In this document: in pieces, positions 17,816 through 42,829 of the stretch
How positions within the stretch are numbered: the stretch's first letter is position 1
Layout: each line of letters starts with the position of its first letter
Assembly (NCBI GenBank): GCA_017525505.1
Contig: JAFXSR010000017.1
Location: 1 to 64,000, forward strand
DNA: 64,000 nt
Source: Bacteroidales bacterium
GTDB taxonomy: Bacteria; Bacteroidota; Bacteroidia; Bacteroidales; WCHB1-69
Direction: 5' to 3'
Translations under genes and position numbers: made by a program
Notes under the pieces: model-generated
Databases searched by the model: none
Told to the model about the DNA's origin: nothing
Seen by the model: only the letters and a program-made list of their open reading frames with translations

Positions 17816-17952
17816 CAGGAGGACACTCCCTGCACTCGTACGGGGAGACACTCATTGCGTTCGCTCATCAATACGAAAAAATTATTGCTTTAGAACTCAT
17901 AAAACAGCTTCAACATTTCAACAAATAAACGATTCAACAAATCAACAACAAT
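17816..17952 (+). repeat. degenerate GGGGAG hairpin units and CAAC-rich leader
   Basis: Just after sprA a CTCCC/GGGGAG pairing (17826-17846) is followed by a GGGGAG spacer unit with a GCG-TT-CGC mini-stem, a weak relative of the arrays at 35619 and 38268. From 17907 the leader of alaS consists of TTCAAC/TCAACAAAT words repeated every 9-10 bp. No promoter box was identified. Confidence 0.45.
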
Positions 17953-22015: not shown

Positions 22016-22693
22016 ATGAACGAAGTAAAAGTCATCGAAATAAAAAAGAGCGTTTTTGCGGAAAATGAAAAGGATGCGGATGCGTTGCGACAGGAACTGA
22101 AAAGCAAAGGAGTATTTCTTCTCAACCTGATGTCGTCACCTGGCAGCGGCAAAACCACCACCCTTATCCAGCTGATTAACAAGATTAAAGACAAAGTACG
22201 CATTGCTGTAATGGAAGCCGACATTGACAGCGATGTGGACGCTGTCAAAATCAAAAAGGCCACTGGTGTTCCCTCCATCCAACTCCATACTGGCGGCATG
22301 TGCCACCTTGATGCGGAAATGACCCGCCAAGGAATAGACAACCTCGACCTCAACGAAGTGGACCTTGTCATCCTTGAAAATGTCGGAAATCTTGTGTGCC
22401 CTGCCGAATTCGACACTGGCAGCTGCCGCAACGCAATGATTCTCTCTGTTCCGGAAGGCGACGACAAACCCCTGAAATATCCTCTCATGTTCACGGTCTG
22501 CGACCTTGTCATTGTCAACAAAACCGACGTAATGCCTTATTTCGACTTCGACTTGGAACGTTGCAAAACCAATATCCACCAACGTAATCCCAAAGCAGAA
22601 GTCATCCCCATCAGTGCCAAAACCGGCGACGGCATCGACCGCCTAGCCACATGGCTCCTGCAAGAAGTGAATGTTGATAAGCTTCGCTGTTAG
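22016..22693 (+). CDS. hypB: HypB-type nickel-insertion GTPase
   Basis: A 225-residue SIMIBI GTPase. P-loop SSPGSGKTT (residues 40-48), switch EADIDSDVD, metal site GGMCHLDA (Cys/His near 96-97) with LVCPAEFDTG (Cys near 128), and NKTD for guanine specificity. HypB delivers nickel with HypA to [NiFe] hydrogenase or to other nickel enzymes. No hydrogenase subunits are in the window. Its last residues (KLRC) and its TAG stop are encoded by the first unit of a mini-hairpin array that starts inside the gene, so the native C-terminus may have been altered by repeat insertion. Confidence 0.93.
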   Translation: MNEVKVIEIKKSVFAENEKDADALRQELKSKGVFLLNLMSSPGSGKTTTLIQLINKIKDKVRIAVMEADIDSDVDAVKIKKATGVPSIQLHTGGMCHLDAEMTRQGIDNLDLNEVDLVILENVGNLVCPAEFDTGSCRNAMILSVPEGDDKPLKYPLMFTVCDLVIVNKTDVMPYFDFDLERCKTNIHQRNPKAEVIPISAKTGDGIDRLATWLLQEVNVDKLRC

Positions 22694-22733
22694 TAATTTC
22701 ATGTTAGTTACTTCGTGTTGATTAGTAAATGTT
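22680..22733 (+). repeat. mini-hairpin array B1 (GTTAGTN spacers)
   Basis: Units: AGC-TTC-GCT, GTTAGTA, AT-TTC-AT, GTTAGTT, AC-TTC-GT, GTTGATT, AGTAAAT. Each unit is a 2-3 bp stem around TTC followed by a 7-nt spacer. The array contains the hypB stop and ends at the next gene's ATG. Confidence 0.75.
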
Positions 22734-23176
22734 ATGAAAATTTATAATTTTGAAGATTTAGTGGTATGGCAATTGGCAAGAGAACTTGTCAAAGACATTT
22801 ATGCCCAATTTGCGGCAAGTAAGGATTTTGGCTTTAACAATCAGATTCAGCGTGCTGTAATTTCTGTAATGAATAACATTGCGAGGGCTTTGATAAGAGT
22901 AAGAATTCAAAAGACAATAAGCAACTTTTAAGTTATCTAAACATATCCTATGGTTCTTGTGGAGAGGTGAAAAGTATGTTGTATGTAGCGGAAGATTTAG
23001 GATATATTAATGATGAAACAGCCAAATCCTTACGCGAACAATGTACAAATTTATCTATAAAAATCACTTCATTCATGTCTAAATTTCACGAATACGACAC
23101 AAAAAAAAACAACAGCGAAGCTTATCAACATGAAATAACTAACACGAAGTTCACCAACACGAAGTCACTAACATAA
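22734..23176 (+). pseudogene. four-helix bundle (S23/23S rRNA intervening-sequence) protein, frameshifted
   Basis: The first frame (MKIYNFEDLVVWQLARELV ... VISVMNNIA) is the S23 family N-terminus. The conserved continuation (EGFDKS..., then LNISYGSCGEVKSMLYVAEDLGYI) is found in the +1 frame from base 22883. One missing base between 22882 and 22883 (GC-GAG) restores a single protein of about 147 residues with the family's NIAEGF motif. The tail after FHEYDTKKNN is encoded by array B2, so it is not native. Family members form small pentameric bundles of unclear function. The gene is inserted between hypB and the oxidoreductase, flanked by arrays in opposite orientation. Confidence 0.8.
23111..23174 (-). 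repeat. mini-hairpin array B2 (opposite orientation)
   Basis: Reverse-complement form of B1: AGC-GAA-GCT, TATCAAC, AT-GAA-AT, AACTAAC, AC-GAA-GT, TCACCAAC, AC-GAA-GT, CACTAAC, AT. With B1 it forms an interrupted inverted repeat around the S23-type gene. Confidence 0.75.
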
Positions 23177-23189
23177 AAATTATACTTGT

Positions 23190-26051
23190 ATGCCCGAAAT
23201 GTCGAACAAGTTTGTCCCAAAACACAAAGGCGACAAAAATCCGAACCCCAAACTACTCAAATTCGTCCGCCACGTAACGGACCGTATCCCCGGAAAAATC
23301 AAGATGACCACCGATGCTCCTGAATATTGGGGGCTCGCCTGCATCTTCGAAGACGAAATGGATGCCGTAACACGCGAAGCCGCACTGGATCTGCTTTTAG
23401 ACATGCTTCCCGGCAATTTCTTCCGGGTGCGTGAGCATCACACTTATGCCAAACTGCATGAAATGAATGCCCAGAAGCATTATACTCCAGATGACAAGTC
23501 CCTTGATGAGCTGCTTGACCTGATGGCCCGTCTGGGTGTCATGGAGTACGATTATGGAGACAAATACACCAAAAATGGTCCTGTTCCTGGTACAACATAC
23601 AAAAGGGAAGACCGTATCTACTGGGTTCCCATGTTCGTTCCAGGCAGTGCCGAATATACCAATATGAACGAGGAATTAATGAAGAAACATCCCGAATTGG
23701 GCATGTTCTTCGAACGCATGACCTTCCTCCCGCTGGAGAAAATCACCCCCATGGTACCCATGGGTGGCAGTGGTATTGGCATGCACGTAATTCCAGTGGA
23801 AAAGGCCATCTCCATGGAGAATCAATCCATCGACATCGAACACATCTCCTACTGGCTCAAACGCTATGAGGGTCACCTCGCTGTAGGAATCTGCTCATGC
23901 CGCATCGGACGTAAACAGTTGGACGAGGGTTGTGCGGACGATTATCACGACTGGTGCATTGGCGTAGGCGACATGGCAGAATACCTGGTTGAGACAAACC
24001 GCGGTCACTATATCACCTACGATGAATGCATGGCTATCTTAAAAAAGGCTGAAGACCATGGTTTTGTACACCAGATCACCAATATAGACGGAGAAGGGAA
24101 GATTTTCGCCATTTGCAACTGTAACGTAAAGATTTGCAATGCTTTACGCACCTCACAGCTCTTTAACACCCCCAATATGTCGCGTAGCGCATACGTGGCT
24201 AAAGTTGACCCAAAGAATTGTGTGGCCTGTGGCCGCTGCGTGGAATACTGTCCTGCCGGGGCGGTCCGTCTCGGCCAAAAACTCTGTACCAAACACGGTG
24301 AACAGACTTATCCGAAACAAGAATTGCCTGACGCCACCAAATGGGGCCCACACAAATGGGACGAAGATTACCGCGACAAGAACCGCATCAATTGTTATCC
24401 TACAGGTACAGCACCATGCAAAACCGCCTGTCCGGCTCATATCGCCGTACAAGGTTACCTGAAAAAAGCCGCCGAAGGCAAATATACTGAGGCTTTGGAG
24501 TTAATCAAGCGCGAGAACCCCTTCCCTGCAGTTTGTGGCCGCGTATGCAACCGTCGCTGCGAGGACGCCTGTACCCGTGGCACCATCGACCAACCCATCG
24601 CTATCGATGCCGTGAAAAAATTCATTGCTGAACAAGACTTAAAAGCTGAAACGCGTTTTGTGCCAGAAGTGAACATCTGCTCCAATGTGAAAGACCACTG
24701 GGAAGAAAAAATCGCCATCATCGGTGGCGGTCCTGCCGGTCTGAGCTGTGCCTACTATCTCGCCACCATGGGCTACAAACCCACCGTGTTCGAGAAAAAC
24801 GACATCCCTGGTGGTATGCTGCAGTATGGCATCCCGTCATACAAACTCGACAAAGCTGTTATTAAGGCTGAAATCGACATCATGCGCGAAATCGGAGTGG
24901 ATATACATACTGGAGTGGAAGTGGGCAAAGACATCACCATCCAGCAACTGCGCGAACAAGGCTACAAGGGCTTCTATGTGGCCATCGGATGTCAAGGAGG
25001 CAAATTACCAGGTATCTCCGGAGAAAACCTCGAAGGCACCATTACGGCTATTGACTATCTTCACTATGCCAATTGTGGAAATGTGGATGTAAATATGAAC
25101 GACCATGCGTCTCTACAAACGACCAATAAAAAAGTTGTTGTCGTTGGTGGCGGCAATGTGGCTATCGATGCAGCCCGTGTAGCCAAACGCAATGGCGCTT
25201 CGGAAGTCACTATGCTTTCGCTGGAAACTGAAGACATTATGCCAGCCTCCTTAGAGGAACGCAGTGAAGCCCGTGAAGACGGTGTGGTCATCAACCCCGG
25301 CTGGGGACCGAAGGAAGTACTCGGCACCGATAAAGTCACCGGCATTGTCTTCAAGAAATGTACTTCTGTATATGATGCGGAACACCGTTTCTCCCCACAA
25401 TACGATGAAAATGAAACCATCACGTTAGATGCTGACATGGTCATTTTCGCCATCGGTCAGACTGTAATTCTGAAAGACCTGCTGAAGGATACCAAAGTTG
25501 AATTTATCCGTGGTGTATATCCTGTTGCCGACAAGTTGACCTATCAAACCGCCGAAGAGGACATCTTCGTGGGTGGAGACTGCTTCACGGGACCGAAATT
25601 CGCCATCGACGCCATCGCCGCTGGTCATGAAGCTGCCGAAAGCCTGCACCGTTACGTACAGCACGGCCATTTGACCATCGGACGCAACCGCCGCGATTTC
25701 ATTGAGCTGGATAAGGACGACATCGTGGTGGAAAACTACGACAATTCATCCCGTCAGGTTGAAGGTATGCGCAAGGCGGAAACACCGTTTAGCGAATACA
25801 TGCAGACTCTCACCGAAGAACAAGTCCGCACCGAAACAGCGCGCTGCCTTTCTTGTGGAGCCTCAGTGGTAGATACCAACCGCTGCATAGGTTGTGGCAT
25901 CTGCACCACAAAATGCGCTTTCGACGCCATCCATCTCTTCCGCGACAACCCCGATGCAAGTATCATGCGTACCTCCGAAGACAAGTTCGGTGGCATCCTG
26001 CCATACATGCTCAAACGCACTGGCAAGATTGTATTCAAAAGCAAAAGTTGA
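23190..26051 (+). CDS. large FeS/FAD NAD(P)-binding oxidoreductase (GltD-like fused to ferredoxin domains)
   Basis: A 953-residue multidomain redox protein. Residues 1 to about 330 are a Cys-containing region of unknown type (ICSCRIG near 232, ICNCNVKIC near 311). A 4Fe-4S motif CVACGRCVEYCP sits near 343. A GltD-type N-terminal cluster domain follows (CKTACPAHIAVQGYL; VCGRVCNRRCEDAC). The FAD motif IAIIGGGPAGLSCAYYL is near 507, the NAD(P) motif VVVVGGGNVAIDAARV near 648, and GGDCFTGP near 790. A last ferredoxin motif CIGCGICTTKC is near 898. It presumably moves electrons between NAD(P)H, flavin and several clusters in the cytosol. The partner and reaction are unknown. Its hypA/hypB neighbours suggest a nickel-linked process. 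Confidence 0.85.
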   Translation: MPEMSNKFVPKHKGDKNPNPKLLKFVRHVTDRIPGKIKMTTDAPEYWGLACIFEDEMDAVTREAALDLLLDMLPGNFFRVREHHTYAKLHEMNAQKHYTPDDKSLDELLDLMARLGVMEYDYGDKYTKNGPVPGTTYKREDRIYWVPMFVPGSAEYTNMNEELMKKHPELGMFFERMTFLPLEKITPMVPMGGSGIGMHVIPVEKAISMENQSIDIEHISYWLKRYEGHLAVGICSCRIGRKQLDEGCADDYHDWCIGVGDMAEYLVETNRGHYITYDECMAILKKAEDHGFVHQITNIDGEGKIFAICNCNVKICNALRTSQLFNTPNMSRSAYVAKVDPKNCVACGRCVEYCPAGAVRLGQKLCTKHGEQTYPKQELPDATKWGPHKWDEDYRDKNRINCYPTGTAPCKTACPAHIAVQGYLKKAAEGKYTEALELIKRENPFPAVCGRVCNRRCEDACTRGTIDQPIAIDAVKKFIAEQDLKAETRFVPEVNICSNVKDHWEEKIAIIGGGPAGLSCAYYLATMGYKPTVFEKNDIPGGMLQYGIPSYKLDKAVIKAEIDIMREIGVDIHTGVEVGKDITIQQLREQGYKGFYVAIGCQGGKLPGISGENLEGTITAIDYLHYANCGNVDVNMNDHASLQTTNKKVVVVGGGNVAIDAARVAKRNGASEVTMLSLETEDIMPASLEERSEAREDGVVINPGWGPKEVLGTDKVTGIVFKKCTSVYDAEHRFSPQYDENETITLDADMVIFAIGQTVILKDLLKDTKVEFIRGVYPVADKLTYQTAEEDIFVGGDCFTGPKFAIDAIAAGHEAAESLHRYVQHGHLTIGRNRRDFIELDKDDIVVENYDNSSRQVEGMRKAETPFSEYMQTLTEEQVRTETARCLSCGASVVDTNRCIGCGICTTKCAFDAIHLFRDNPDASIMRTSEDKFGGILPYMLKRTGKIVFKSKS

Positions 26052-26152
26052 TGAGCCTGAGGCTGTTAATGAGCTACGCTGTTAATGAGTAAATGTTAAC
26101 ACGAAGTAACTAACACGAAGTCATCCACTTAAAATAACCAACACGAAGTGAA
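26052..26152 (+). repeat. mini-hairpin array B3 (two halves in opposite orientation)
   Basis: First half: AGCC-TGA-GGCT, GTTAATG, AGC-TAC-GCT, GTTAATG, AGTAAAT. Second half: three AC-GAA-GT units separated by AACTAAC and a longer spacer, running up to hypA. The halves have the same spacer read in opposite directions. Confidence 0.75.
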
Positions 26153-32371: not shown

Positions 32372-33094
32372 ATGCTGATTGAATTAAAGGGCATTCACAA
32401 AACCTACGACAACGGGCAGCCGCTGCATGTGCTGAAAGGCATTGACCTCAGCATCGACAAAGGTGAGTTTGTTTCCATCATGGGCGCTTCCGGCTCAGGA
32501 AAATCAACGTTACTGAATATTCTCGGCATCCTGGACAATTACGACGAGGGAGAATACCATATTGACGGCAAGCTGATCAAAAACCTGAGCGAAAAAGAAG
32601 CGGCTCATTATCGCAACCAGTTGATAGGCTTTGTATTCCAGTCGTTCAATCTCATCAGTTTCAAAACCGCCATTGAAAATGTGGAGCTTCCACTATTCTA
32701 CCAAGGGGTAAACCGCAAAGAACGTCACGACTTGGCCATGCACTATCTTGAGCGTTTCGGCTTGGCTGATTGGGCATCGCATTATCCCAACGAGATGTCG
32801 GGCGGACAGAAGCAGCGTGTAGCCATTGCCCGTGCCCTGATCACTCAGCCTAGTATTTTGCTGGCCGACGAGCCTACCGGTGCCCTCGACTCCAAAACCT
32901 CTGTGGAAGTAATGGAACTGCTGACCCGACTCAACCGCGAGGAGAAAGTCACCATCATTGTGGTGACCCACGAGAGCGGCGTAGCCAATTGCACCGACAA
33001 AATCATTCATATCAAGGACGGCATCATCGGTGAAACCACTATCAACACCGAACATCACGCTTCCGTATTCGGCAGCACCACCATCATGAAATAA
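32372..33094 (+). CDS. ABC transporter ATP-binding protein (MacB/LolD type)
   Basis: A 240-residue ATPase. Walker A GASGSGKST (residues 38-46), Q-loop VFQSFNLI, signature MSGGQKQRV near 143, Walker B ILLADEPTGALD near 163, and H-loop VTHE near 200. The subgroup powers MacB/FtsX-type permeases (mechanotransmission) rather than classical import. Two such permeases follow directly, then a MacA-like adaptor and a TolC-like channel, so it probably energises export of a toxic or signalling compound across the envelope. The substrate is unknown. Confidence 0.94.
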   Translation: MLIELKGIHKTYDNGQPLHVLKGIDLSIDKGEFVSIMGASGSGKSTLLNILGILDNYDEGEYHIDGKLIKNLSEKEAAHYRNQLIGFVFQSFNLISFKTAIENVELPLFYQGVNRKERHDLAMHYLERFGLADWASHYPNEMSGGQKQRVAIARALITQPSILLADEPTGALDSKTSVEVMELLTRLNREEKVTIIVVTHESGVANCTDKIIHIKDGIIGETTINTEHHASVFGSTTIMK

Positions 33095-33111
33095 ACATAG
33101 CATTTTTCAGC

Positions 33112-34380
33112 ATGAAAGACCTCTTTATCGAAATATGGGAATCTTTGAAACGCAACAAACTGCGTACCGCTCTGACGGGTTTCGCAGTGGCGTGGGGTAT
33201 CTTTATGCTGATCGTGCTTCTGGGCGCCGGCAATGGACTGATGAACGCCTTCATGAACAACGGCCGCGATTTCGCCTCCAACACCATGATGATTTTCGGT
33301 GGCTATACCACCATGCCTTACGACGGACTGGAGCAAGGAAGGGATATCAGCTTGAACGACAAGGATATTGAATTAACCGAAAGCCACCTATTTGCCGACC
33401 ATATTGACGATGTGACCGCCAATCTTACGCAAGGTCCTTATCACATGGTATGGAAAAATAAGAGTGTCAGCGTATCGCTCTCCGGTTGCTACCCCAAGAT
33501 TGCCGAAATGGATAAAATCACCCTCTTGGAAGGACGCTTTATCGACAACATCGACATGAAACTACGGCGGAAAACAGCGGTAATAGCCAGTTCTCACGCC
33601 AAGCAATTGCTGAACGGAGGCACCGACTACGCCTACTTCATCGGCAAGCAACTTAAAATCGACAACACGCTTTATCAGATAGTGGGCATCTACAAGGCAC
33701 AGGAAAACATGCGTAACAACGAAGTCTATGTGCCATTCAACACCATGCAGATGCTGACCAACAACCTCAATTATGAGGATCATATTCTTTTTACCTTCCA
33801 CGGACTGAAAACCGAGCAGGAAAACAATGAATTTGAGAAACAGTACAAGGCGGTACTCAACAAGGCACACCGTGCCGATCCCGACGATGAAGGAGCAATA
33901 TGGGTATGGAACCGTTTTACCCAAAACATGCAAATGAACAAAGGTACCAGCATCTTGCGCAAAGCATTGTGGATTATTGGCATTCTGACATTGCTGGGCG
34001 GCATTGTCGGGGTATCCAATATCATGCTGATTACTGTAAAGGAACGCACTCACGAGTTCGGCATCCGCAAAGCCATTGGCGCCACGCCAGCCTCCATCAT
34101 GAAACTCATTGTGGCCGAAAGTGTTACCATCACAGCCTTGTTTGGATACATTGGCATGATTCTCGGCTTGGTGGCCTGTGAAATCATGGACGTCACCGTG
34201 GGAAAATCCTCCTTAGAGATGTTCGGCGAAAAAATTCAAGTATTTGTGGACCCCACAGTAGGACTGGATGTGGCCTTCGGCGTCACCTTTGTGCTGATTG
34301 TCGCTGGCACCATCGCAGGCCTCTCTCCCGCCTTGAAAGCTGCTAAAATTCGACCTATAGAAGCCTTACGAAACGAATAA
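33112..34380 (+). CDS. MacB-like ABC transporter permease 1
   Basis: A 422-residue membrane protein with MacB topology. An N-terminal helix (TALTGFAVAWGIFMLIVLLGAGNG, read in parts, residues 18-42) is followed by a ~230-residue periplasmic domain. Three C-terminal helices form an FtsX domain (ALWIIGILTLLGGIVGVSNIM; FGIRKAIGATPASIMKLIV; FVLIVAGTIAGLSPALKAAKIRPIEALRNE, in parts). The conserved RKAIGATP loop couples to the ATPase. It pairs with the next, paralogous permease to make a heterodimer, unlike the fused MacB of E. coli. Confidence 0.9.
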   Translation: MKDLFIEIWESLKRNKLRTALTGFAVAWGIFMLIVLLGAGNGLMNAFMNNGRDFASNTMMIFGGYTTMPYDGLEQGRDISLNDKDIELTESHLFADHIDDVTANLTQGPYHMVWKNKSVSVSLSGCYPKIAEMDKITLLEGRFIDNIDMKLRRKTAVIASSHAKQLLNGGTDYAYFIGKQLKIDNTLYQIVGIYKAQENMRNNEVYVPFNTMQMLTNNLNYEDHILFTFHGLKTEQENNEFEKQYKAVLNKAHRADPDDEGAIWVWNRFTQNMQMNKGTSILRKALWIIGILTLLGGIVGVSNIMLITVKERTHEFGIRKAIGATPASIMKLIVAESVTITALFGYIGMILGLVACEIMDVTVGKSSLEMFGEKIQVFVDPTVGLDVAFGVTFVLIVAGTIAGLSPALKAAKIRPIEALRNE

Positions 34381-34383
34381 GTT

Positions 34384-35616
34384 ATGAAGTTCGACCTCGA
34401 CACCTACAAGGAAATATCAGATTCGCTGATGCGAAACAAGCGGAGGAGCTTCCTCACCGGCTTCGGCATCTTCTGGGGCTTGTTCATGCTGCTGTTTCTG
34501 ATTGGTGGCGGGAATGGACTGAAAGAGCTGCTCTCCAAGAACTTCTCGGGTTTTGCCACCAACACCATCATTATGGGAGCTGGCCAGACAGGCAAACCGT
34601 ACAAGGGTTTCGAGGAAGGACGTTATTGGCAATTGGAGTTTAAAGACGTAGAACGGCTGAAACATCTGTTTCCTGAATTGGCCATCATCACCCCGCAACT
34701 GTCACAATGGGGTGCGGTAGCTGTTAATGGAGGACATATGGTCAACAGTAACATGCTGGGAGCAGATGCCGACTACCAGTATGTGGAAACCCCGGTGCTG
34801 AAATATGGACGTTACCTCAACAATGTGGATATTCAACAACACCGGAAGGTATGTGTCATCGGCAAGCAGATTTACCAGTCGCTGTTTCCGGAAGGCGGTG
34901 ACCCCTGCGGACAGTTTATCTGTGTAAATTCTGTTTATTTTCAAGTAATTGGAGTGAATTACAGCAGCTCCAACATCAACATCAATGGCCGAAGCGAAGA
35001 AAGTGTTACCGTACCTATTACAGTTTTACGGGACATTCTTAACACCGGAGATGCGGTAGGAATGATATGCATGGTGGGACGAGACGGTGTGAAGATGAGC
35101 GACATGGAACCTCGCATCCGCCAAGCTGTTTACCGCAAGCATACCATTGCCCCCGACGATGACGAGGCACTTTTCATGCTCAACATGGAGCCGATTTTCA
35201 AGATTGTGGACAACCTTTTCAGGGGGGTGAACTTCCTGATTTGGCTGGTGGGTATCGGCACCTTGTTGGCCGGAGCTATCGGGGTAAGCAATATCATGAT
35301 GGTGGTGGTGAAGGAGCGCACTATCGAGATCGGCATCCGCAGGGCTATTGGCGCCACTCCTTTCGACATTCTGTTTCAGATTGTGGCAGAGGGCATCGTG
35401 CTCACCCTTATCGCAGGTATGTCGGCCATTGTGTTCTCGGTATTCCTGCTGAATGGGCTTGAAGTGATTGCTCACCACGAAACCGCCTTCCAGATTAACT
35501 TCGGCACGGCAATGGCGGCCTTTTTCCTGCTCGCGCTACTTGGCATGTTAGCAGGCATCGCCCCGGCCTACCGAGCTATGCATATCAAACCCGTTGACGC
35601 CATGAGAGACGAATAA
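34384..35616 (+). CDS. MacB-like ABC transporter permease 2
   Basis: A 410-residue paralogue of the preceding gene, starting 3 bp after it. It has the same layout: one N-terminal helix (SFLTGFGIFWGLFMLLFLIG, in parts), a periplasmic MacB-type domain (RYLNNVDIQQHRKVCVIGKQ), and a C-terminal FtsX domain with IGIRRAIGATPFDILFQIV, ending YRAMHIKPVDAMRDE. Tandem non-identical permeases imply a heteromeric transporter. An array of GGGGAG-spaced hairpins starts right after its stop. Confidence 0.9.
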   Translation: MKFDLDTYKEISDSLMRNKRRSFLTGFGIFWGLFMLLFLIGGGNGLKELLSKNFSGFATNTIIMGAGQTGKPYKGFEEGRYWQLEFKDVERLKHLFPELAIITPQLSQWGAVAVNGGHMVNSNMLGADADYQYVETPVLKYGRYLNNVDIQQHRKVCVIGKQIYQSLFPEGGDPCGQFICVNSVYFQVIGVNYSSSNININGRSEESVTVPITVLRDILNTGDAVGMICMVGRDGVKMSDMEPRIRQAVYRKHTIAPDDDEALFMLNMEPIFKIVDNLFRGVNFLIWLVGIGTLLAGAIGVSNIMMVVVKERTIEIGIRRAIGATPFDILFQIVAEGIVLTLIAGMSAIVFSVFLLNGLEVIAHHETAFQINFGTAMAAFFLLALLGMLAGIAPAYRAMHIKPVDAMRDE

Positions 35617-35618
35617 GC

Positions 35619-35790
35619 GGGGAGTCTCGCACTGCGTGCTCGAGGGGAGTTTCGGGCTTCGCCCTCAAGGGGAGACATGCACTACGTGCATTCGGGGAGA
35701 CGGAAAAACGTACACTAACGTGTACTCGGAAAGACGGGAAGACAGGGAGACGATAATCGTCTCACCGAGCGAATGAAATGAGCGTCTATA
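35619..35790 (+). repeat. GGGGAG mini-hairpin array A1
   Basis: Five units follow GGGGAG or GGGAG spacers. The stems are GCAC-TGC-GTGC (35629-35639), GGGC-TTC-GCCC (35654-35664), ATGCAC-TAC-GTGCAT (35677-35691), GTACAC-TAAC-GTGTAC (35710-35725) and GAGACGA-TAA-TCGTCTC (35747-35763). Stem sequence differs in every unit while pairing is kept. 34 bp including the first unit are identical to array A2. No gene lies in 35617-35823. The last ~30 bp before the next ATG are AT-rich with no -7 box. Confidence 0.8.
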
Positions 35791-35823
35791 CGCATTAACG
35801 AATAAACAATAAAACAACATACA

Positions 35824-36915
35824 ATGAAAAAAGGACTCAAAATTATCATTTTCACGCTGATTGGCCTGATCTTTATCGGCACCTTCGTATTTCTGTGTCA
35901 GAAATCAAAGAAGAAAGAAATCCAGTACAACGAATATGAGGTAGTGCAGATGGACATCAAGCGGCAGGCTCTGATTACCGGCAAAATCAATCCCCGCAAC
36001 GAGGTGGCCATCAAGCCTCAAATCAATGGCATCATTGCCGAACTGTATAAGGAAGCCGGACAGGAAGTGAAGGAAAATGAGGTGATCGCCAAGTTGAAAG
36101 TGATACCCGACATGAACTCGCTGAGCGCCGCCCAAAGCCGTGTGCGTCTCGCGGAAATCAACTACGATCAGGCCCTGAGTACCTACAAGCGCGAAAAAGC
36201 CTTGTATGACCAGAAACTCATCAGTCAGGAGTCCTTTGAACAGACCACCCAAATGCTGGAGCAAGCCCGCGAGGAGAAATCGGCGGCAAAAGATGCGTTG
36301 GAAATTATCCGCGACGGGGTTTCCTCTTCCAACGCCACCTCCAGCTCCACCCTGGTGCGCTCCACCATTTCCGGACTCATTCTGGATGTTCCCGTCAAAG
36401 TGGGTAACTCTGTCATTCAGGCCAACACGCTCAACGACGGCACCACGGTGGCCACCATCGCCAACATGAACGACCTGATTTTCGTGGGCAATGTCGATGA
36501 GACAGAAGTCGGCACCCTGCAAGAAGGCATGCCGCTCACCATCACCATCGGAGCCTTGCAGGATTTGAGTTTTGAGGCCACCCTGGAATACATCGCCCCA
36601 AAAGCCACCGAAAGCAACGGCACCAACAAGTTTGAAATCAAAGCCGCCGTGCTGCCCCAGAAAGAGCACAAAATACGCTCAGGCTACAGCGCCAATGCCG
36701 AAATCACCCTCGAACAAGCCACCGGAGTGCTGGCGGTTCCTGAAAGCGCTCTTGAATTCTCAGGCGACTCCACCTTTGTCTATGTCAAACGAAACGGCAC
36801 TTTCACCCGCCAGGCAGTGGAAACCGGCCTCAGCGACGGCATCAACATCCAAATTACCAGCGGCCTGAAAGAAGGCGAATTGGTAAGAGGCTCACAAATC
36901 TTTGATAAAGAATAA
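35824..36915 (+). CDS. MacA/HlyD-type periplasmic adaptor protein
   Basis: A 363-residue membrane-fusion protein. One N-terminal transmembrane helix (IIIFTLIGLIFIGTFVFLC) is followed by a lipoyl half (KINPRNEVAIKPQINGIIAEL). A long coiled-coil hairpin covers about 97-165 (SRVRLAEINYDQALSTYKRE, ESFEQTTQMLEQAREEKSAA). The second lipoyl half reads STISGLILDVPVKVGN. A beta-barrel and membrane-proximal domain complete it (VPESALEFSGDSTFVYVKRNG). It links the inner-membrane MacB-like complex to the outer-membrane channel encoded 3 bp downstream. Confidence 0.93.
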   Translation: MKKGLKIIIFTLIGLIFIGTFVFLCQKSKKKEIQYNEYEVVQMDIKRQALITGKINPRNEVAIKPQINGIIAELYKEAGQEVKENEVIAKLKVIPDMNSLSAAQSRVRLAEINYDQALSTYKREKALYDQKLISQESFEQTTQMLEQAREEKSAAKDALEIIRDGVSSSNATSSSTLVRSTISGLILDVPVKVGNSVIQANTLNDGTTVATIANMNDLIFVGNVDETEVGTLQEGMPLTITIGALQDLSFEATLEYIAPKATESNGTNKFEIKAAVLPQKEHKIRSGYSANAEITLEQATGVLAVPESALEFSGDSTFVYVKRNGTFTRQAVETGLSDGINIQITSGLKEGELVRGSQIFDKE

Positions 36916-36918
36916 ACC

Positions 36919-38256
36919 ATGAAAAAAATACTGCTTAGTTTCATTGCAAGTTTATTGTTTACCTCCGTCTTGGGACAGGAAAACAATTCCCTACATGGTC
37001 CATGGACACTGGACGAGTGCATCAATTATGCCATTGAGCACAACAATGGGGTCAAGCAAAGCCAATATTCGGTACAGCGGAGCTCTATTGAGTTGAACAC
37101 CGCCAAAAATAGTGTATGGCCATCCCTCTCGGCCAATGGTTCCCAAGGTTTTAACTTCGGAAGAGGATTATCGGAAGATAACACCTACATCCAGAATAAC
37201 ACCGCCAATACCTCATTCAGCATCGGCGGTAGTTTGGATTTGTTCACAGGATTGAGAACCAAGAACACCATCACCATGGGCAAACTCAACCTGCAAGCTG
37301 CCACCGCTGACTACGAAAAGGCGAAAGACGACATCCGTGTAGCCGTAATGCAAGCCTATATGCAGATTCTCTACAGCATGGAAATCAGCAAAGTAGCCAT
37401 CGAGCAAATCCGCATCGACTCTATGCAGGTGGAACGGCTTACGATTTTGGAAAAAGCAGGAAAAGTGGGTCCCTCGGAAGTGGCTACCCAGAAGTCCTCT
37501 TTGGCACAAAGCCAACTCACCTATACCCAAGCCCTCAACCAACTGAAGCTGGCAGTTCTCGAGTTGACCCAACTGCTGGAACTTCCCTCTCCCGAAGGAT
37601 TTACGGTTAGCCCACTGGACATCTCCAACTTCACTCTGCGCCAGCTGCCCAATCCCGAGCAAATCTATCTTCAGGCAGTAGAGGTTCGACCTGCCATCCG
37701 TGCAGAAGAAATCCGCTACGACTACGCCAAAACCAACATCTCTCTGGCTAAAAGCGGCTATATTCCAACCCTCTCCATGAATGGCGGTATTGGCACCAAC
37801 TATTATGCCCTGCTGGGTTATCAGAACAAAAATTTCGGACAGCAACTGAAAGACAATTTCAGTCCTTACCTCGGGTTTAATCTGAATATTCCTATTTTCG
37901 ATAAGCTGGTTACCCGCAACAATGTGCGTAGTGCCAAACTGCAGCTGAATAACCAGCAGCTCCAGCTGGACAATGCCAAGAAGACCCTCTACAAGGAAAT
38001 CCAGCAGGCCTACTACGGGGCGGTAGCTGCACGCGACAAATACAAAAGCAGCAAGACAGCGGCGGAAAGCTCCGAAGAAGCCTTTCTTCTGGAGAAAGCC
38101 CGCTATGAAAACGGGAAAGTCACATTAACAGAATTCAACGAAGCCAAGAACAATTACCTGAAAGCATCTTCCGACTTAGTGCAAGCGCAATACGACTATA
38201 TTTATAAAGTGCAGTTGTTAGAGTTCTACCGCAGCGGGGAAACGGAGAAACGGTAA
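36919..38256 (+). CDS. TolC-family outer-membrane efflux protein
   Basis: A 445-residue protein with a signal peptide (cleavage near VLGQ, residue 20). Two TolC repeats follow: WTLDECINYAIEHNNGVKQS with AKNSVWPSLSANGSQGFNFG, then PAIRAEEIRYDYAKTNISLAKSGYIP with long helices up to YENGKVTLTEFNEAKNNYLKA. Trimers form the outer-membrane exit duct for the MacA/MacB-like system encoded upstream. Its last residues (SGETEKR) are encoded by GGGGAAACGGAG-type sequence resembling the spacer of array A2, so the repeat may have extended into the gene. Confidence 0.92.
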   Translation: MKKILLSFIASLLFTSVLGQENNSLHGPWTLDECINYAIEHNNGVKQSQYSVQRSSIELNTAKNSVWPSLSANGSQGFNFGRGLSEDNTYIQNNTANTSFSIGGSLDLFTGLRTKNTITMGKLNLQAATADYEKAKDDIRVAVMQAYMQILYSMEISKVAIEQIRIDSMQVERLTILEKAGKVGPSEVATQKSSLAQSQLTYTQALNQLKLAVLELTQLLELPSPEGFTVSPLDISNFTLRQLPNPEQIYLQAVEVRPAIRAEEIRYDYAKTNISLAKSGYIPTLSMNGGIGTNYYALLGYQNKNFGQQLKDNFSPYLGFNLNIPIFDKLVTRNNVRSAKLQLNNQQLQLDNAKKTLYKEIQQAYYGAVAARDKYKSSKTAAESSEEAFLLEKARYENGKVTLTEFNEAKNNYLKASSDLVQAQYDYIYKVQLLEFYRSGETEKR

Positions 38257-38266
38257 GACGAGAAGA

Positions 38267-38364
38267 CGGGGAGTCTCGCACTGCGTGCTCGAGGGGAGTT
38301 AGGCTTCGCCTAGGGGGAGTCTCACGCTTCGCGTTCGAGGGGAGTTGTGCTACGCACAAGAGGA
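38267..38364 (+). repeat. GGGGAG mini-hairpin array A2
   Basis: Four units with GGGGAG spacers: GCAC-TGC-GTGC (38278-38288), AGGC-TTC-GCCT (38301-38311), ACGC-TTC-GCGT (38324-38334) and TTGTGC-TAC-GCACAA (38345-38359), then a final GGAG. Same architecture as A1, with a different set of stems after the first. Confidence 0.8.
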
Positions 38365-38495
38365 GTCTTTCTTAGCTTAAAGTCCTATATGTAGCCATTA
38401 CCGCCATGCGTTTTGCCAACGGTTCCGACACCTACGCCCGCCACAAGGGCTTATACATTTTTTTCAATTAATCTTATTCATAAAAGATTTTTTAC

Positions 38496-38503
38496 TAATT
38501 TTG
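38496..38503 (+). promoter_or_regulatory. -7 promoter box of the candidate structured RNA
   Basis: TAATTTTG, an exact TAnnTTTG match, with no start codon leading to a gene for more than 350 bp. The predicted start is near 38510. Confidence 0.55.
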
Positions 38504-38509
38504 CAGGGT

Positions 38510-38740
38510 CTATTGAAGCACTATTGTGTGCTTGGATAGGCAGATTTTTATGACATATTGAGCTTGACGCTCTTGTCCTCTCGATGCAAAGTCTGGAAAA
38601 CAATGCTATGAACTGAGAATAAGATGGCGAAAAGTTCACGTTTTAGGCGTGAATTTTATTCGACCCTTATTTAGTTCAAGGTATTTCCAGACACCTGCAT
38701 TGAAAATAAGCGGCAAAACGAAGAATTCATGCCTTTTTTT
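38510..38740 (+). ncRNA. candidate structured non-coding RNA (possibly 6S-like)
   Basis: Hairpin 1 is AAGCAC/GTGCTT (38516-38532) and hairpin 2 GAGC/GCTC (38560-38572). Then comes one long rod from 38584 to 38700: ATGCA/TGCAT, GTCTGGAAA/TTTCCAGAC, TGAACT/AGTTCA, AATAAG/CTTATT, CGAA/TTCG and GTTCACG/CGTGAAT, separated by small internal loops. A T-rich tract (38733-38740) could end transcription. A long bulged rod of this size recalls 6S RNA, but no diagnostic sequence was recognised. No coding frame fits. The strand is chosen from the promoter. Confidence 0.5.
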
Positions 38741-38861
38741 CTATCCCTTATTTGAACAAAGTATCCAGTTCCGAATAGCGGGGATGCCGAAAACCGTATT
38801 TGAGAGTAGGTGTATTGAATAAAAACCGATGGGGACAATGTGACAACAGTCCAAAAACAAG

Positions 38862-39764
38862 ATGAAAAGAAATCTGACATTTTTCATGATTGTATGCTTT
38901 GCCATACTCTTCACTGCCTGCCACAAGGAAAGTGAAGGCGTGTACAACCCTGGCAAGAAAATCAGCAAAACTTACTACACGGCTTATAACTCCGATGGCA
39001 CAATAGAACAACCTAGACATTTATCAGAGACATATACATGGAACAAAGACAACACGTTGAATAATATAGAAAGCGAATGGAGTCGGCAATCGTACACTTA
39101 TTACTCCAATAAACGTATTAAAACATATACATACCAGAGTAAGGTAGATGGATGGAGCTACACATCTGAGTATAAATACAAAGGGAATCAATTGTCTGAA
39201 ATTAAACTTTCTGATGGTGAGATTTATCAATTCACTCACAAAAATGGAAAGATTGTTACAATAACATACGGGGTGTACAACAACGACAAAAATGCCGATA
39301 AAAGCAAAGTGAGTCCTTTGCGTTTTGTGTTATCTGAAGAAATTTGCAGGGATATTCAGGAGAATATTGAAATGCAACGGGCGAAGAAGGTGGGAAAGGG
39401 ATCCAATACAGGTACTGATGTTCACGTGCTTTCAACCTATACATTAACTTGGACGAAAGACAATGTCACAAAAATGGTTTATATGGATGAAGAAGATGGG
39501 CGAACAATAACCAATACTTATCAGTATGATAGCTACAATAATCCATATTATAATAGTGATTATACTGAAGTATACAGTCTGTCAAAAAACAATATTATTA
39601 GTGAGAAACATGAACAAGGTAATAGCTTACGTGTAATAACCTATACCTATACTTATGAGGATCAGTATCCTGTTCGTAAGCAACAATCAAGCCAAAGTTA
39701 TTGGAATGGTTCTCTGATGTCTGAATCTAATAATAGGCTTACAGAATATGAATATTTGAATTAA
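38862..39764 (+). CDS. lipoprotein with YD/RHS-like wording, unknown function
   Basis: A 300-residue lipoprotein (LFTAC, Cys20). The body is built of short beta-hairpin motifs rich in Tyr, Thr and Lys (LSETYTWNKDNTLNNIES, YTYYSNKRIKTYTYQ, SEYKYKGNQLSEIKLSDG, TNTYQYDSYNNPYYN), reminiscent of DUF4595-like or RHS/YD beta-sheet repeats found in Bacteroidota surface lipoproteins. No catalytic motif is visible. It follows the candidate structured RNA, has no clear -7 box of its own, and ends at an intrinsic terminator. Confidence 0.7.
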   Translation: MKRNLTFFMIVCFAILFTACHKESEGVYNPGKKISKTYYTAYNSDGTIEQPRHLSETYTWNKDNTLNNIESEWSRQSYTYYSNKRIKTYTYQSKVDGWSYTSEYKYKGNQLSEIKLSDGEIYQFTHKNGKIVTITYGVYNNDKNADKSKVSPLRFVLSEEICRDIQENIEMQRAKKVGKGSNTGTDVHVLSTYTLTWTKDNVTKMVYMDEEDGRTITNTYQYDSYNNPYYNSDYTEVYSLSKNNIISEKHEQGNSLRVITYTYTYEDQYPVRKQQSSQSYWNGSLMSESNNRLTEYEYLN

Positions 39765-39776
39765 ACACAAAAAGAT

Positions 39777-39808
39777 GGGGAGGTTCATGAAGACTTCCCC
39801 GTTTTTTT
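39777..39808 (+). terminator. intrinsic terminator after the lipoprotein gene
   Basis: Stem GGGGAGGT/ACTTCCCC (one G-T pair) with a following 7-T tract. Confidence 0.85.
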
Positions 39809-39828
39809 GCTATTATTTATAATTTTCA

Positions 39829-39965
39829 ACGGCAGTCGGAATATGATTGAATTGTGTGTCGTCAATAGAGTGTCTCCCCGTCTTTGTCATGTAGGTCTGT
39901 CACATTGTGACAGCCGTGTGTTGAACCTGTTGCGGCTGCCGTGATACGACTGCCCTACATAATGC
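39829..39965 (+). repeat. nested inverted repeats
   Basis: CTGTCAC-ATT-GTGACAG (39897-39913) lies inside an ATGTAGG/CCTACAT pairing (39889 to 39961), and GGCAGTCG near 39832 pairs with CGACTGCC near 39948. No coding frame fits. The stretch 39809-40052 otherwise shows only the direct repeat at 40031. Confidence 0.5.
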
Positions 39966-40030
39966 TACCTGATGTGCCCATGTGATGTGCGAGTATCGTC
40001 TTATACAGACTTTCTACGGAAGAAACCGTC

Positions 40031-40049
40031 GGCATGGCCCACGCACGCA
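40031..40049 (+). repeat. direct repeat flanking the ORF6N gene, left copy
   Basis: GGCATGGCCCACGCACGCA matches 41063-41081 at 17 of 19 positions in the same orientation, bracketing about 1 kb that holds the ORF6N gene. Confidence 0.5.
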
Positions 40050-40052
40050 GCA

Positions 40053-40658
40053 TCAGGAGTTGATTCTTTTCTTTAGCTCTGCCACTTCTTCCCTTAATTT
40101 TCGGACTTCATCCTCATTCTCGCGTTTTACTGAATGCTTGAATTTGAACATAGCCAGATTCAGTTCGAAGGAGGTTTCGCTGCTCTGCTTGGGAAGGATA
40201 TCGCTCATGATGTCCTCCACTAATTGTCCACCTCGGTGTAGAAGGACTTGTTGCTCTGTGCTTTTGTCCTCATATTGCGGAACTTCGACAATCACCCGTG
40301 AAAGTTCTTTTAATTTGGCGTATGCTTCCACAATGGCGAGGGTTGTTTCTACCGCTTTCGGACTTTTGAGAATGGTGGCTAACATGTAAAGTCCCTTTTC
40401 GGTGAAGGCTTTGGGAACAACAGTAGAATGTTTTTGTTTCTCGAACCGGTGAAAATTTTTCACCAGTTCATCTCTCTCCGTATCCAATAGTTCAAAAACA
40501 TAGCCTTCTGGAAACTTGTCTGGGTTGTTTTTTACTGATTTGTTGATTTGTTTGGTTTCCACACCATACAAATCGGCCACATCTGAATCCAAAATCACCT
40601 GTTGATTCCGCAGGGTGATAATTTTCTTTTCCACTTCAGAAAGTAAATTGTTTTCCAT
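40053..40658 (-). CDS. ORF6N/KilA-N-type DNA-binding protein
   Basis: A 201-residue protein. The N-terminal ORF6N domain reads IITLRNQQVILDSDVADLYGVETKQINKSVKNNPDKFPEGYVFEL (seen in parts), followed by FTEKGLYMLATILKS. The C-terminus is a long coiled coil (VKRENEDEVRKLREEVAELKKRI). The domain comes from phage and large DNA virus regulators and is scattered over Bacteroidota genomes, often as a lone gene; its function is unknown. Direct repeats flank it, consistent with transfer. Its own -7 box lies 31 bp upstream. Confidence 0.88.
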   Translation of the reverse strand: MENNLLSEVEKKIITLRNQQVILDSDVADLYGVETKQINKSVKNNPDKFPEGYVFELLDTERDELVKNFHRFEKQKHSTVVPKAFTEKGLYMLATILKSPKAVETTLAIVEAYAKLKELSRVIVEVPQYEDKSTEQQVLLHRGGQLVEDIMSDILPKQSSETSFELNLAMFKFKHSVKRENEDEVRKLREEVAELKKRINS

Positions 40659-40689
40659 AGTATTGAAAATTTAAGGTTTATACTGTCTG

Positions 40690-40697
40690 CAAAGTTA
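40690..40697 (-). promoter_or_regulatory. -7 promoter box for the ORF6N gene
   Basis: TAACTTTG on the minus strand, 31 bp before the start codon at 40658. Confidence 0.55.
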
Positions 40698-41062
40698 CGA
40701 TAACCAAACTGAAAAAACAATAGTGAAATCCGTGTTAATTTATTAAAAATCAATGGTTTGATAAATTACATATTCTTATCAAAAAGTGGACAAAATCGTT
40801 CAAAAGATTGCAGAAAAGAAAAAGTTTAATTTTTGGAATCTAGCTTAAGTAGGTAAGAGAGGAACCGAGATTTCGGAAATTTTAAGCCCTGATGCCGCGT
40901 GTGGGGGCAAAGTCGACGGTTGGGGGGTGCGGGCTTGTGCGGCTGCACTTACCGTCGACAAGATCTTTTGGTTCCTTTTCCTTCTTTGGAAAAGGAACGG
41001 AAAATGTCAACAAAGATCTTTGCACACTTTCCATCTTTGGAACAAGTATGAGAAAAAAGGTT

Positions 41063-41081
41063 GGTATGGCCTACGCACGCA
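41063..41081 (+). repeat. direct repeat flanking the ORF6N gene, right copy
   Basis: GGTATGGCCTACGCACGCA, partner of 40031-40049. Confidence 0.5.
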
Positions 41082-41141
41082 TCGTCATGGCAAGTGTCAG
41101 CCAGAATCAGTAAAAAATCCCTGCCTTTATCCTATACTCGG

Positions 41142-41174
41142 CCTGTGCTTATCCTGTGCTTATCCTGTGCATAT
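41142..41174 (+). repeat. 11-bp tandem repeat
   Basis: CCTGTGCTTAT occurs twice, then CCTGTGCATAT, head to tail with no gap. It lies in non-coding DNA. Confidence 0.8.
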
Positions 41175-41513
41175 CCCCAAGCAGTATTTTCGGATGCGAT
41201 GCAACGCGGCACTACAATTCCATCATGGGCAAGTGGCGGAGGTCATGAAGAGGCAGCTGCGTCCTCGCAGCTGCACAGCAACAACTGTGGGATGCAAATG
41301 TCCCCCATAGAAATGCGCTTTCACCGACAAATTCTTCCAAAATTACATTCGACCAAACCGAAATTTGGACACCAGCGGATTCGCACTTTTTTGCGATTTG
41401 TAATTTTTATTACAAAAAAGACATCTTTTCAATTGAAAAATGTAATTTTTTATTTATTTGATTATTAATAAGTTGAATATTATTTATCCTTGATTTATTC
41501 GAAATGATTTTGT

Positions 41514-41521
41514 ATGTTTGT
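41514..41521 (+). promoter_or_regulatory. -7 promoter box for the DUF1016 nuclease
   Basis: TATGTTTG, 32 bp before the ATG at 41554. Confidence 0.55.
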
Positions 41522-41553
41522 CGGCAAAAATATAAAAAATCAAGATTGATCTC

Positions 41554-42645
41554 ATGAGTAAATCAATTACAATTCAAGACAAAGACTACCTGCAATGGGT
41601 GAAAGAACTGGGTTCAAGATATCGTAGAAGCCAAATTAAGGCTGCGGTGAAAGTCAATGAGGAGATGTTGCGTTTCTATTGGGAACTGGGAAAGGATATT
41701 GTGGAACGCAATGCTGAAAACAAGTATGGAAGTTCTTTTTATGCAAGCTTAAGTACAGACTTGAAAAGCGAAATTCCATCAGCAACAGGACTGTCTGAAA
41801 GAAATTTGCGCTATATAAAAAGATTCTATTTACTTTATAATGAATTCTTTGTGAATTTGCAGCAAGTTGCTGCAAATTTTGATACTTGTCCACAATTCAT
41901 GAACAAGTACCTTGAGGAATTGTTCTCCATCCCATGGGGTCATCACATGTTACTGATAGACAAGTGCAAAGATAATCCAAAAAAAGCGTTGTTCTTTGTA
42001 CATCAGACCGTGCAAAATGGTTGGAGCCGGAATATGCTTTCAAACTCAATCAACACAGATCATTACGAACGACAAGGTCATGCGTTGACAAATTTTAAAC
42101 GAACACTGCCCGAAGAAGCCAGTGATCTAGCTCAGGAACTGACCAAAGACCCCTACAACTTCGCCTTTACTGGTATCACTGGCAAACACAACGAAAAACT
42201 GTTGAAAGACAAATTGCTTGATAACATCACACAATTCCTTGTGGAACTTGGCACAGGATTCGCGTATATGGGCAGAGAATACCGATTGCAAATAGGTGAA
42301 ACAGAAAATTATATTGACCTGCTGTTCTACAATTTGAACCTTTCGTGCTATGTGGTAATTGAAGTTAAAATTGGCAAGTTTGAATTTGCCGATGCTGGAC
42401 AACTTGGAGGATATGTGGTTGCCTGCAATCATATCCTAAAGAAAGAAGGCAGGGACAATCCCACTATTGGCATTCTAATCTGTAAGGAAAAATACAACCT
42501 TGTTGCCCAATACGCATTGGAGGCCAGTAGTCAGCCCATGGGAATATCGGAATACGAACTGGCAAAACTTTACCCCGAAAAAGTGAAAGGAACCATTCCT
42601 ACCATCGAAGAGCTGGAACAACTGGAAAATAGATTAGATATTTGA
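41554..42645 (+). CDS. DUF1016 (YhcG-type) PD-(D/E)XK nuclease-family protein
   Basis: A 363-residue protein with both DUF1016 parts. The N-terminal helical domain (IKAAVKVNEEMLRFYWELGKDI, YASLSTDLKSEIPSATGLSERNLRYIKRF, in parts) is followed by the C-terminal nuclease-like domain: YIDLLFYNLNLSCYVVIEVKIGKFEFADAGQL (in parts), where Asp of IDLLFYN and the E-x-K at about 270-272 fit the PD-(D/E)XK core. Family members travel in mobile and defence regions; their target is unresolved. It stands alone, with its own -7 box. Confidence 0.9.
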   Translation: MSKSITIQDKDYLQWVKELGSRYRRSQIKAAVKVNEEMLRFYWELGKDIVERNAENKYGSSFYASLSTDLKSEIPSATGLSERNLRYIKRFYLLYNEFFVNLQQVAANFDTCPQFMNKYLEELFSIPWGHHMLLIDKCKDNPKKALFFVHQTVQNGWSRNMLSNSINTDHYERQGHALTNFKRTLPEEASDLAQELTKDPYNFAFTGITGKHNEKLLKDKLLDNITQFLVELGTGFAYMGREYRLQIGETENYIDLLFYNLNLSCYVVIEVKIGKFEFADAGQLGGYVVACNHILKKEGRDNPTIGILICKEKYNLVAQYALEASSQPMGISEYELAKLYPEKVKGTIPTIEELEQLENRLDI

Positions 42646-42758
42646 CAGCCATTGCCAGTGATTTTTCCGCTACCATCTCCTCCCTTCTTGTTCACGGCAC
42701 ACCATTCCGCTATGAACGCAGTGAGCAAGAGAAATCTCGAATGCGATTCTTCAATTGG

Positions 42759-42789
42759 CTCATTAGCACATTATCTCATTAGCACATTC
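42759..42789 (+). repeat. 16-bp direct repeat before gldA
   Basis: CTCATTAGCACATT occurs at 42759 and again at 42775, just upstream of the -7 box. It resembles the TTAGCAAAT words at 8040. Confidence 0.6.
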
Positions 42790-42799
42790 AAAAAATTTG

Positions 42800-42807
42800 T
42801 ATCTTTG
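42800..42807 (+). promoter_or_regulatory. -7 promoter box for the GldA-like gene
   Basis: TATCTTTG, 22 bp before the ATG at 42830. Confidence 0.6.
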
Positions 42808-42829
42808 CCTCCCAAAACAAATATAAATT

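Follow-up and report, generated by a model that had tools for sequence, protein, structure and literature searches.

The GGGGAG-spaced hairpin arrays on either side of an adaptor-channel gene pair in the window (the whole 64,000-nt stretch of DNA analysed, which lies on contig C41 of a 2.74-Mb draft genome) are a genus-wide intergenic repeat and nothing peculiar to the efflux operon, which is an incidental host site. Each array is probably a copy of an intergenic mosaic element of the REP/BIME-like kind, read as single-strand hairpins through loop and mismatch and putatively moved by a Y1 enzyme. The following features were read in the window:

17816–17875, forward strand: degenerate remnant after sprA, in which a single unit (GGGGAGACACTCATTGCGTTCGCTCATC) can be recognised at 17842–17870
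32372–38256, forward strand: efflux genes (ABC ATPase, two MacB/FtsX permeases, HlyD-type adaptor, OEP outer-membrane channel), surrounding genes that do not belong to the element
35619–35699, forward strand: array A1 in the strict sense, with four GGGGAG copies enclosing three hairpin units
35700–35790, forward strand: continuation of A1, related units with other 8-nt linkers
38229–38267, forward strand: 8-nt linker repeats GGGGAAAC, GGAGAAAC, GGTAAGAC and GAGAAGAC
38268–38362, forward strand: array A2, four hairpin units in the order M4-P-M4-P

Array A1 starts 2 nt past the stop codon of the second MacB-like permease gene, with GGGGAG units at 35619, 35644, 35669 and 35694. Its hairpins are, in order, GCAC.TGC.GTGC (M4), GGGC.TTC.GCCC (M4) and the perfect ATGCAC.TAC.GTGCAT. 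Array A2 (units at 38268, 38293, 38314 and 38339; GGGGAG-to-GGGGAG spacing of 25-21-25 nt) contains GCAC.TGC.GTGC, TAGGC.TTC.GCCTA, ACGC.TTC.GCGT and TTGTGC.TAC.GCACAA. Perfect triloop hairpins with stems of at least 4 bp exceeded dinucleotide shuffles in both A1 (4 versus a mean of 0.62; 1 of 1000 shuffles reached 4) and A2 (4 versus a mean of 0.33; 0 of 1000), confirming the arrays given in the preliminary description. The GGGGAG spacing, which had been extended to 35790, holds for 35619–35699; beyond this, a ACGTACACTAACGTGTAC hairpin and 8-nt linkers of the GGGAAGAC and GGGAGAC types are followed by an inverted CGAGCGAATGAAATGAGCG unit. The relative noted after sprA is present, reduced to the single degenerate unit listed above. 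At the Rfam gathering score, a tRNA was the sole match in the window and no match was found at the arrays.

The linker repeats ahead of A2 hold the stop codon and the last four codons (TEKR) of the TolC-like channel gene, and A2 with its linkers runs across that stop codon. The channel protein ends in ...RSGETEKR here and in ...RSGE in several relatives; in five relatives the gene ends at other codons, without these repeats. The genes flanking the arrays also include PadR and PspC genes, and the overall gene content bears out the efflux reading of the cluster.

A strict search pattern (GGGGAG..CTNCG..GGGGAG), with the reversed pattern as the control, gave 15 matches in this genome versus 0 for the control, and 28–90 matches versus 0–1 in six of eight congeners. 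The pattern was thus present, genome-wide and not only at this locus, in seven of nine genomes of this uncultured genus of rumen Bacteroidales (15–90 matches each). No matches were found in the congeners G004 and G007, and 51 more distant genomes had one place in total. Among the matches listed for the related ATGCAC unit, the records were rumen and abomasum Bacteroidales MAGs. In addition to the searches, stretches were sampled from this genome (464 kb), G008 (391 kb), and G004 and G007 (200 kb each). The 34-bp identity between A1 and A2 (CGGGGAGTCTCGCACTGCGTGCTCGAGGGGAGTT) is exact, but it does not denote recent copying between them, as had been proposed. Within this genome the same 31-mer recurs on contig C33, it has many further sites in G001, G006 and G008, and the shared first unit is the commonest (consensus) unit of the genus.

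Successive GGGGAG copies are set at discrete distances, with 67 of approximately 200 at 21 nt and 94 at 25 nt, and the loop position is identical in nearly all of the 25-nt units. Two hairpin designs were recognised. The P design has an unbroken stem of 5–6 bp (e.g., TGGAC.TTC.GTCCA), and the M design has one or two outer pairs, followed by a tandem TC/TC mismatch and then by 2 or 4 bp of inner stem (TYTC NNNC TNC GNNN TCRA). The stems differ between units yet remain paired, as first described, and this was borne out on the genus-wide unit set by strong covariation: 289 paired cells versus 197 ± 8 with permuted arms (maximum of 226 in 2000) for the 25-nt units, and 143 versus 107 ± 5 for the 21-nt units. 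In the TC/TC type (related GAC..TCG unit), outer pairs associate freely with inner pairs (GC/AT 30, AT/GC 26, AT/AT 9, GC/GC 2, broken 3). Among 57 distinct 25-nt units, the loop was T-N-C or T-N-T in 55 and the loop-closing pair was C-G in 54. The TC/TC mismatch was retained in 37 of 38 cases, and the base following it was a purine in 37 of 38. The constant elements are therefore the loop, the mismatch and the spacing, while the stem sequence is free provided that pairing holds.

Read on the opposite strand, the TC/TC mismatch is a tandem G.A, nearly always in a 5'-Y-GA-R-3' context, and the loop is a C-GNA-G triloop. In general nucleic-acid chemistry, both motifs are known to be unusually stable. 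In a nearest-neighbour energy model, single units were no more stable than shuffles on either strand or in either chemistry, and the case for structure therefore rests on the covariation. An unbiased loop census of 103 kb of intergenic DNA from two genomes returned 87 perfect triloop hairpins with C-TNC-G or C-GNA-G loops versus 2.0 expected, with no such excess within genes. The census gave 1 versus 0.8 expected in array-less G004 and 6 versus 1.2 in array-less G007. G-quadruplexes were considered and rejected, as the majority of arrays contain at most four G-tracts and none are present in the related linkers GTTAAGAC and GTGGAGAC.

The C-TNC-G loop is common to the GGGGAG units, the units linked by GTTAAGAC or GTGGAGAC and the repeats beside TnpA genes, in agreement with the earlier suggestion of a single class that has more than one type of spacer. 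The GTTAGTN arrays (22640–22760, 23080–23190 and 26052–26147 of the window; AC.TTC.GT and GC.TTC.GC), which had been placed in the same class, share the loop over stems of 2–3 bp, but GTTAGT spacing was not seen as a genome-wide array in the sampled DNA.

Three units was the modal array size (31 of 73 distinct arrays), and the commonest order was mismatched, perfect, mismatched (M-P-M; 15 arrays). Adjacent units of equal length were less alike than permuted ones (0.494 versus 0.608 ± 0.035, p = 0.0008), so the arrays are not simple tandem duplications. Within an array the GGGGAG units lie in direct order, with opposite orientations occurring only between two parts of a gap. No intragenic array was present among the 61 sampled, in which convergent gaps were over-used (12) and divergent gaps under-used (5). 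In same-direction gaps, the arrays were sense and antisense to the genes in a ratio of 19:19, and the sense arrays began close behind the stop codon (median of ~20 nt).

A comparison of orthologous gaps covered 684 pairs from seven MAGs. Hairpins of this kind were present on at least one side in 205 unique gap pairs, and in 92 of these (~45%) on one side only. The remaining 113 had hairpins on both sides; the 65 that were alignable, a set selected for alignability, showed 92.0% identity versus 88.3% in the flanking genes. This relative conservation could mean function. The gap contents were often swapped whole for other repeat types. Within arrays, indels peaked at 8, 16, 25 and 33 nt, the lengths of linker units, of hairpin units and of the two combined, and one hairpin unit differed between loci whose flanks are 99.7% identical. 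No precise insertion footprint was found.

The special tie to the efflux cluster that had been proposed was not upheld, since in relatives the arrays at both sites are present, different or absent. At the A1 site, the array is shared with changes in G003 and G005, other arrays occupy the site in G001, G002 and G006, and none is present in G008. Array A2 is absent from G001, G002, G003, G006 and G008. The same five genomes lack ~4.5 kb (38257–42829 of the window) between the TolC-like gene and an ATPase gene (42830), which there directly follows the TolC-like gene; A2 lies at the left edge of this segment.

Further observations were made on the gaps. Some arrays were 92–97% identical between species (L086 versus L012, L090 versus L101) where the flanking genes were only ~89% identical, hinting at constraint or a recent exchange of gaps. 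The intergenic DNA of the genus (L011–L042; 684 gap pairs) is made up of a few degenerate repeat types with periods of 8–9 nt (GTTAAGAC, ACGTCTCC, AATGTGCTA, TTTTGAATTC and CAGTGATTAG), which are traded wholesale between species while the flanking genes remain syntenic. A separate MITE-like repeat (AATTCCCCTTCTGTTAGAAGGGGTGCCCGAAGGGCGGGGTAGTGACGC) often directly follows the GGGGAG arrays (L023, L041, L152, L156).

Each genome of the genus carries one to six Pfam Y1_Tnp genes, and the encoded Y1 proteins have the HUH motif and a core ending in a Y---Q--HH motif, the protein features asked of IS200/IS605 ends or TnpA subclass 1.2. The Y---Q--HH motif is the signature of TnpA subclass 1.2, which is listed without a REP (PMC6006769). 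Within 500 nt of 27 TnpA-Y1 genes (loci including L183, L184, L185, L187, L188, L193, L195, L196 and L198), 127 Y-TNC-R/Y-GNA-R hairpins with stems of at least 5 bp were present versus 1.2 expected. Such hairpins lay beside 25 of the 27 genes, including those of array-less G004 and G007. The stem is particular to each TnpA-Y1 gene family (GTACC, GGCATCTC, ACCCTC, TGCGGT, GGCCT and others) and the loop is the same throughout, so that the loop is common and the stem variable; the GGGGAG arrays show the same.

The GGGGAG arrays themselves do not lie beside these genes; one true array was found within 1 kb of the TnpA-Y1 genes checked, which is approximately the chance level, and the units were consequently rejected as terminal repeats of a TnpA gene. 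TnpA copy number also did not track array number (one gene and 28 matches in G001; one gene and none in G004 and in G007). In Y1 genes of other families the loop signature was mixed, and no phylum-wide claim is thus made. A tentative possibility, which we hold to be less probable than not, is that subclass 1.2 TnpA-Y1 has its own REP-like system here. The enzyme would recognise any short stem with a T-N-C/GNA triloop, together with the tandem mismatch in one hairpin type, so that stems could diversify into orthogonal families, and the GGGGAG tri-hairpins would be non-autonomous members.

The arrays work like REPs, yet lie outside the described REP families. With the REP/BIME/REPIN elements of Proteobacteria and their TnpA-REP (RAYT) genes they share short, multi-copy, extragenic palindromes able to form hairpins, mosaic combinations, a preference for convergent and same-direction gaps, a tolerant stem sequence, a conserved stem mismatch (AA-GC in E. 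coli) and HUH/Y1 genes in the genome. As in BIMEs, unlike unit types are regularly combined (the M-P-M mode and unlike neighbours), but the units keep a direct order and do not alternate in orientation. The arrays further differ in that the stem is not constant among the units of an array, three hairpins are the mode, GGGGAG spacers stand on both sides, and all of the units read GGGGAG where a 5' GTAG/GTGG would stand at the hairpin foot. No cognate TnpA-REP gene flanks them, although Y1 genes are flanked by other repeats that carry this loop. Membership of the GTAG REPs therefore fails on tag and gene linkage.

The CGTC-tagged REPs (PMC3733652) similarly have no adjoining dedicated transposase, often have unlike neighbours (heterodimers) and are reported in Bacteroidetes too. 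However, these have stems of 8–9 bp, loops of 4–5 nt, a CGTC tag and head-to-head dimers, whereas the GGGGAG units have stems of 2–6 bp, a 3-nt loop, no CGTC tag and direct-order arrays; stem, loop and tag thus separate the two. The atypical secondary structures flanking TnpA-REP subclass 2.6 of Bacteroidetes (PMC6006769) are comparable in host and in having hairpins by Y1 genes with copies elsewhere, but the Y1 proteins here carry the Y---Q--HH of subclass 1.2. A literature search found no description of these GGGGAG hairpin elements. In mitochondria, double-hairpin or repetitive hairpin elements likewise have variable stems and a conserved shape, but they belong to another genome compartment and have no link to an HUH gene.

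Three other explanations were weighed against a REP/BIME-like mosaic. As RNA elements, the arrays would form mRNA hairpins that block exonucleases or mark processing sites, leading to differing permease and adaptor/channel levels. The start of sense arrays near stop codons, the position of A1 within a likely operon and some G.T pairs on the GGGGAG strand are consistent with this. The equal use of sense and antisense orientations, the array-less A1 site of G008 with the other arrays of G001, G002 and G006, and A.C mismatches (wobble on the other strand only) at least as frequent as G.T make it unlikely, and the mRNA-stabilising or -cutting role suggested initially thus received no positive support. 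The arrays have no T-run, and intrinsic terminators were rejected.

It is also rather improbable that the arrays are by-products of slippage, i.e., self-expanding and self-contracting repeats in which template switching perfects palindromes, with neither a transposase nor a selected function. Indels of whole linker or hairpin units, linkers made of tandem 8-mers and the frequent change of loop C to T would be expected from such a process. It leaves unexplained the fixed loop, its recurrence at TnpA genes, neighbours less alike than chance and the kept mismatch, which palindrome correction should erase. Host DNA proteins such as gyrase or a nucleoid protein are reported to bind E. coli REPs, and binding sites of this sort would suit arrays that are strictly intergenic, genus-wide and, where alignable, at least as conserved as the flanking genes. 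Given two congeners without arrays, and the absence of hairpins from the partner genome in nearly half of the hairpin-bearing orthologous gaps, this explanation is very improbable.

Under the favoured REP/BIME-like reading, one element would typically consist of three short hairpins among GGGGAG spacers, mostly mismatched, perfect and mismatched. An HUH/Y1 (TnpA) nuclease recognising a folded single DNA strand by its loop and stem irregularity would give rise to the pattern seen. The E. coli TnpA-REP requires the stem mismatch and tolerates changes in stem and loop, and the IS608 and ISDra2 transposases recognise a T in the loop together with an irregularity in the stem (PMC8266576). We file the arrays as a REP/BIME-like mosaic because such an enzyme would leave the pattern observed, which comprises genome-wide spread, covariation, a fixed loop and mismatch, the three-unit mode, presence or absence at orthologous sites, whole-unit indels and a loop shared with TnpA-flanking repeats. 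From this we infer a Y1 nuclease as the past or present mover and single-stranded DNA as the form recognised. The elements would pile up where they are harmless, between genes and often just past stop codons, and whole units would then be gained or lost through slippage or recombination between the direct-repeat spacers.

If this reading is right, what is inherited would be a shape and not a sequence, with loop, mismatch and spacing fixed, stems freely replaced and neighbours kept unlike. A TnpA subclass listed as partnerless would gain a partner, and annotators would be cautioned against calling such arrays operon-specific regulators. Much of the turnover of intergenic DNA in rumen Bacteroidales would also be explained.
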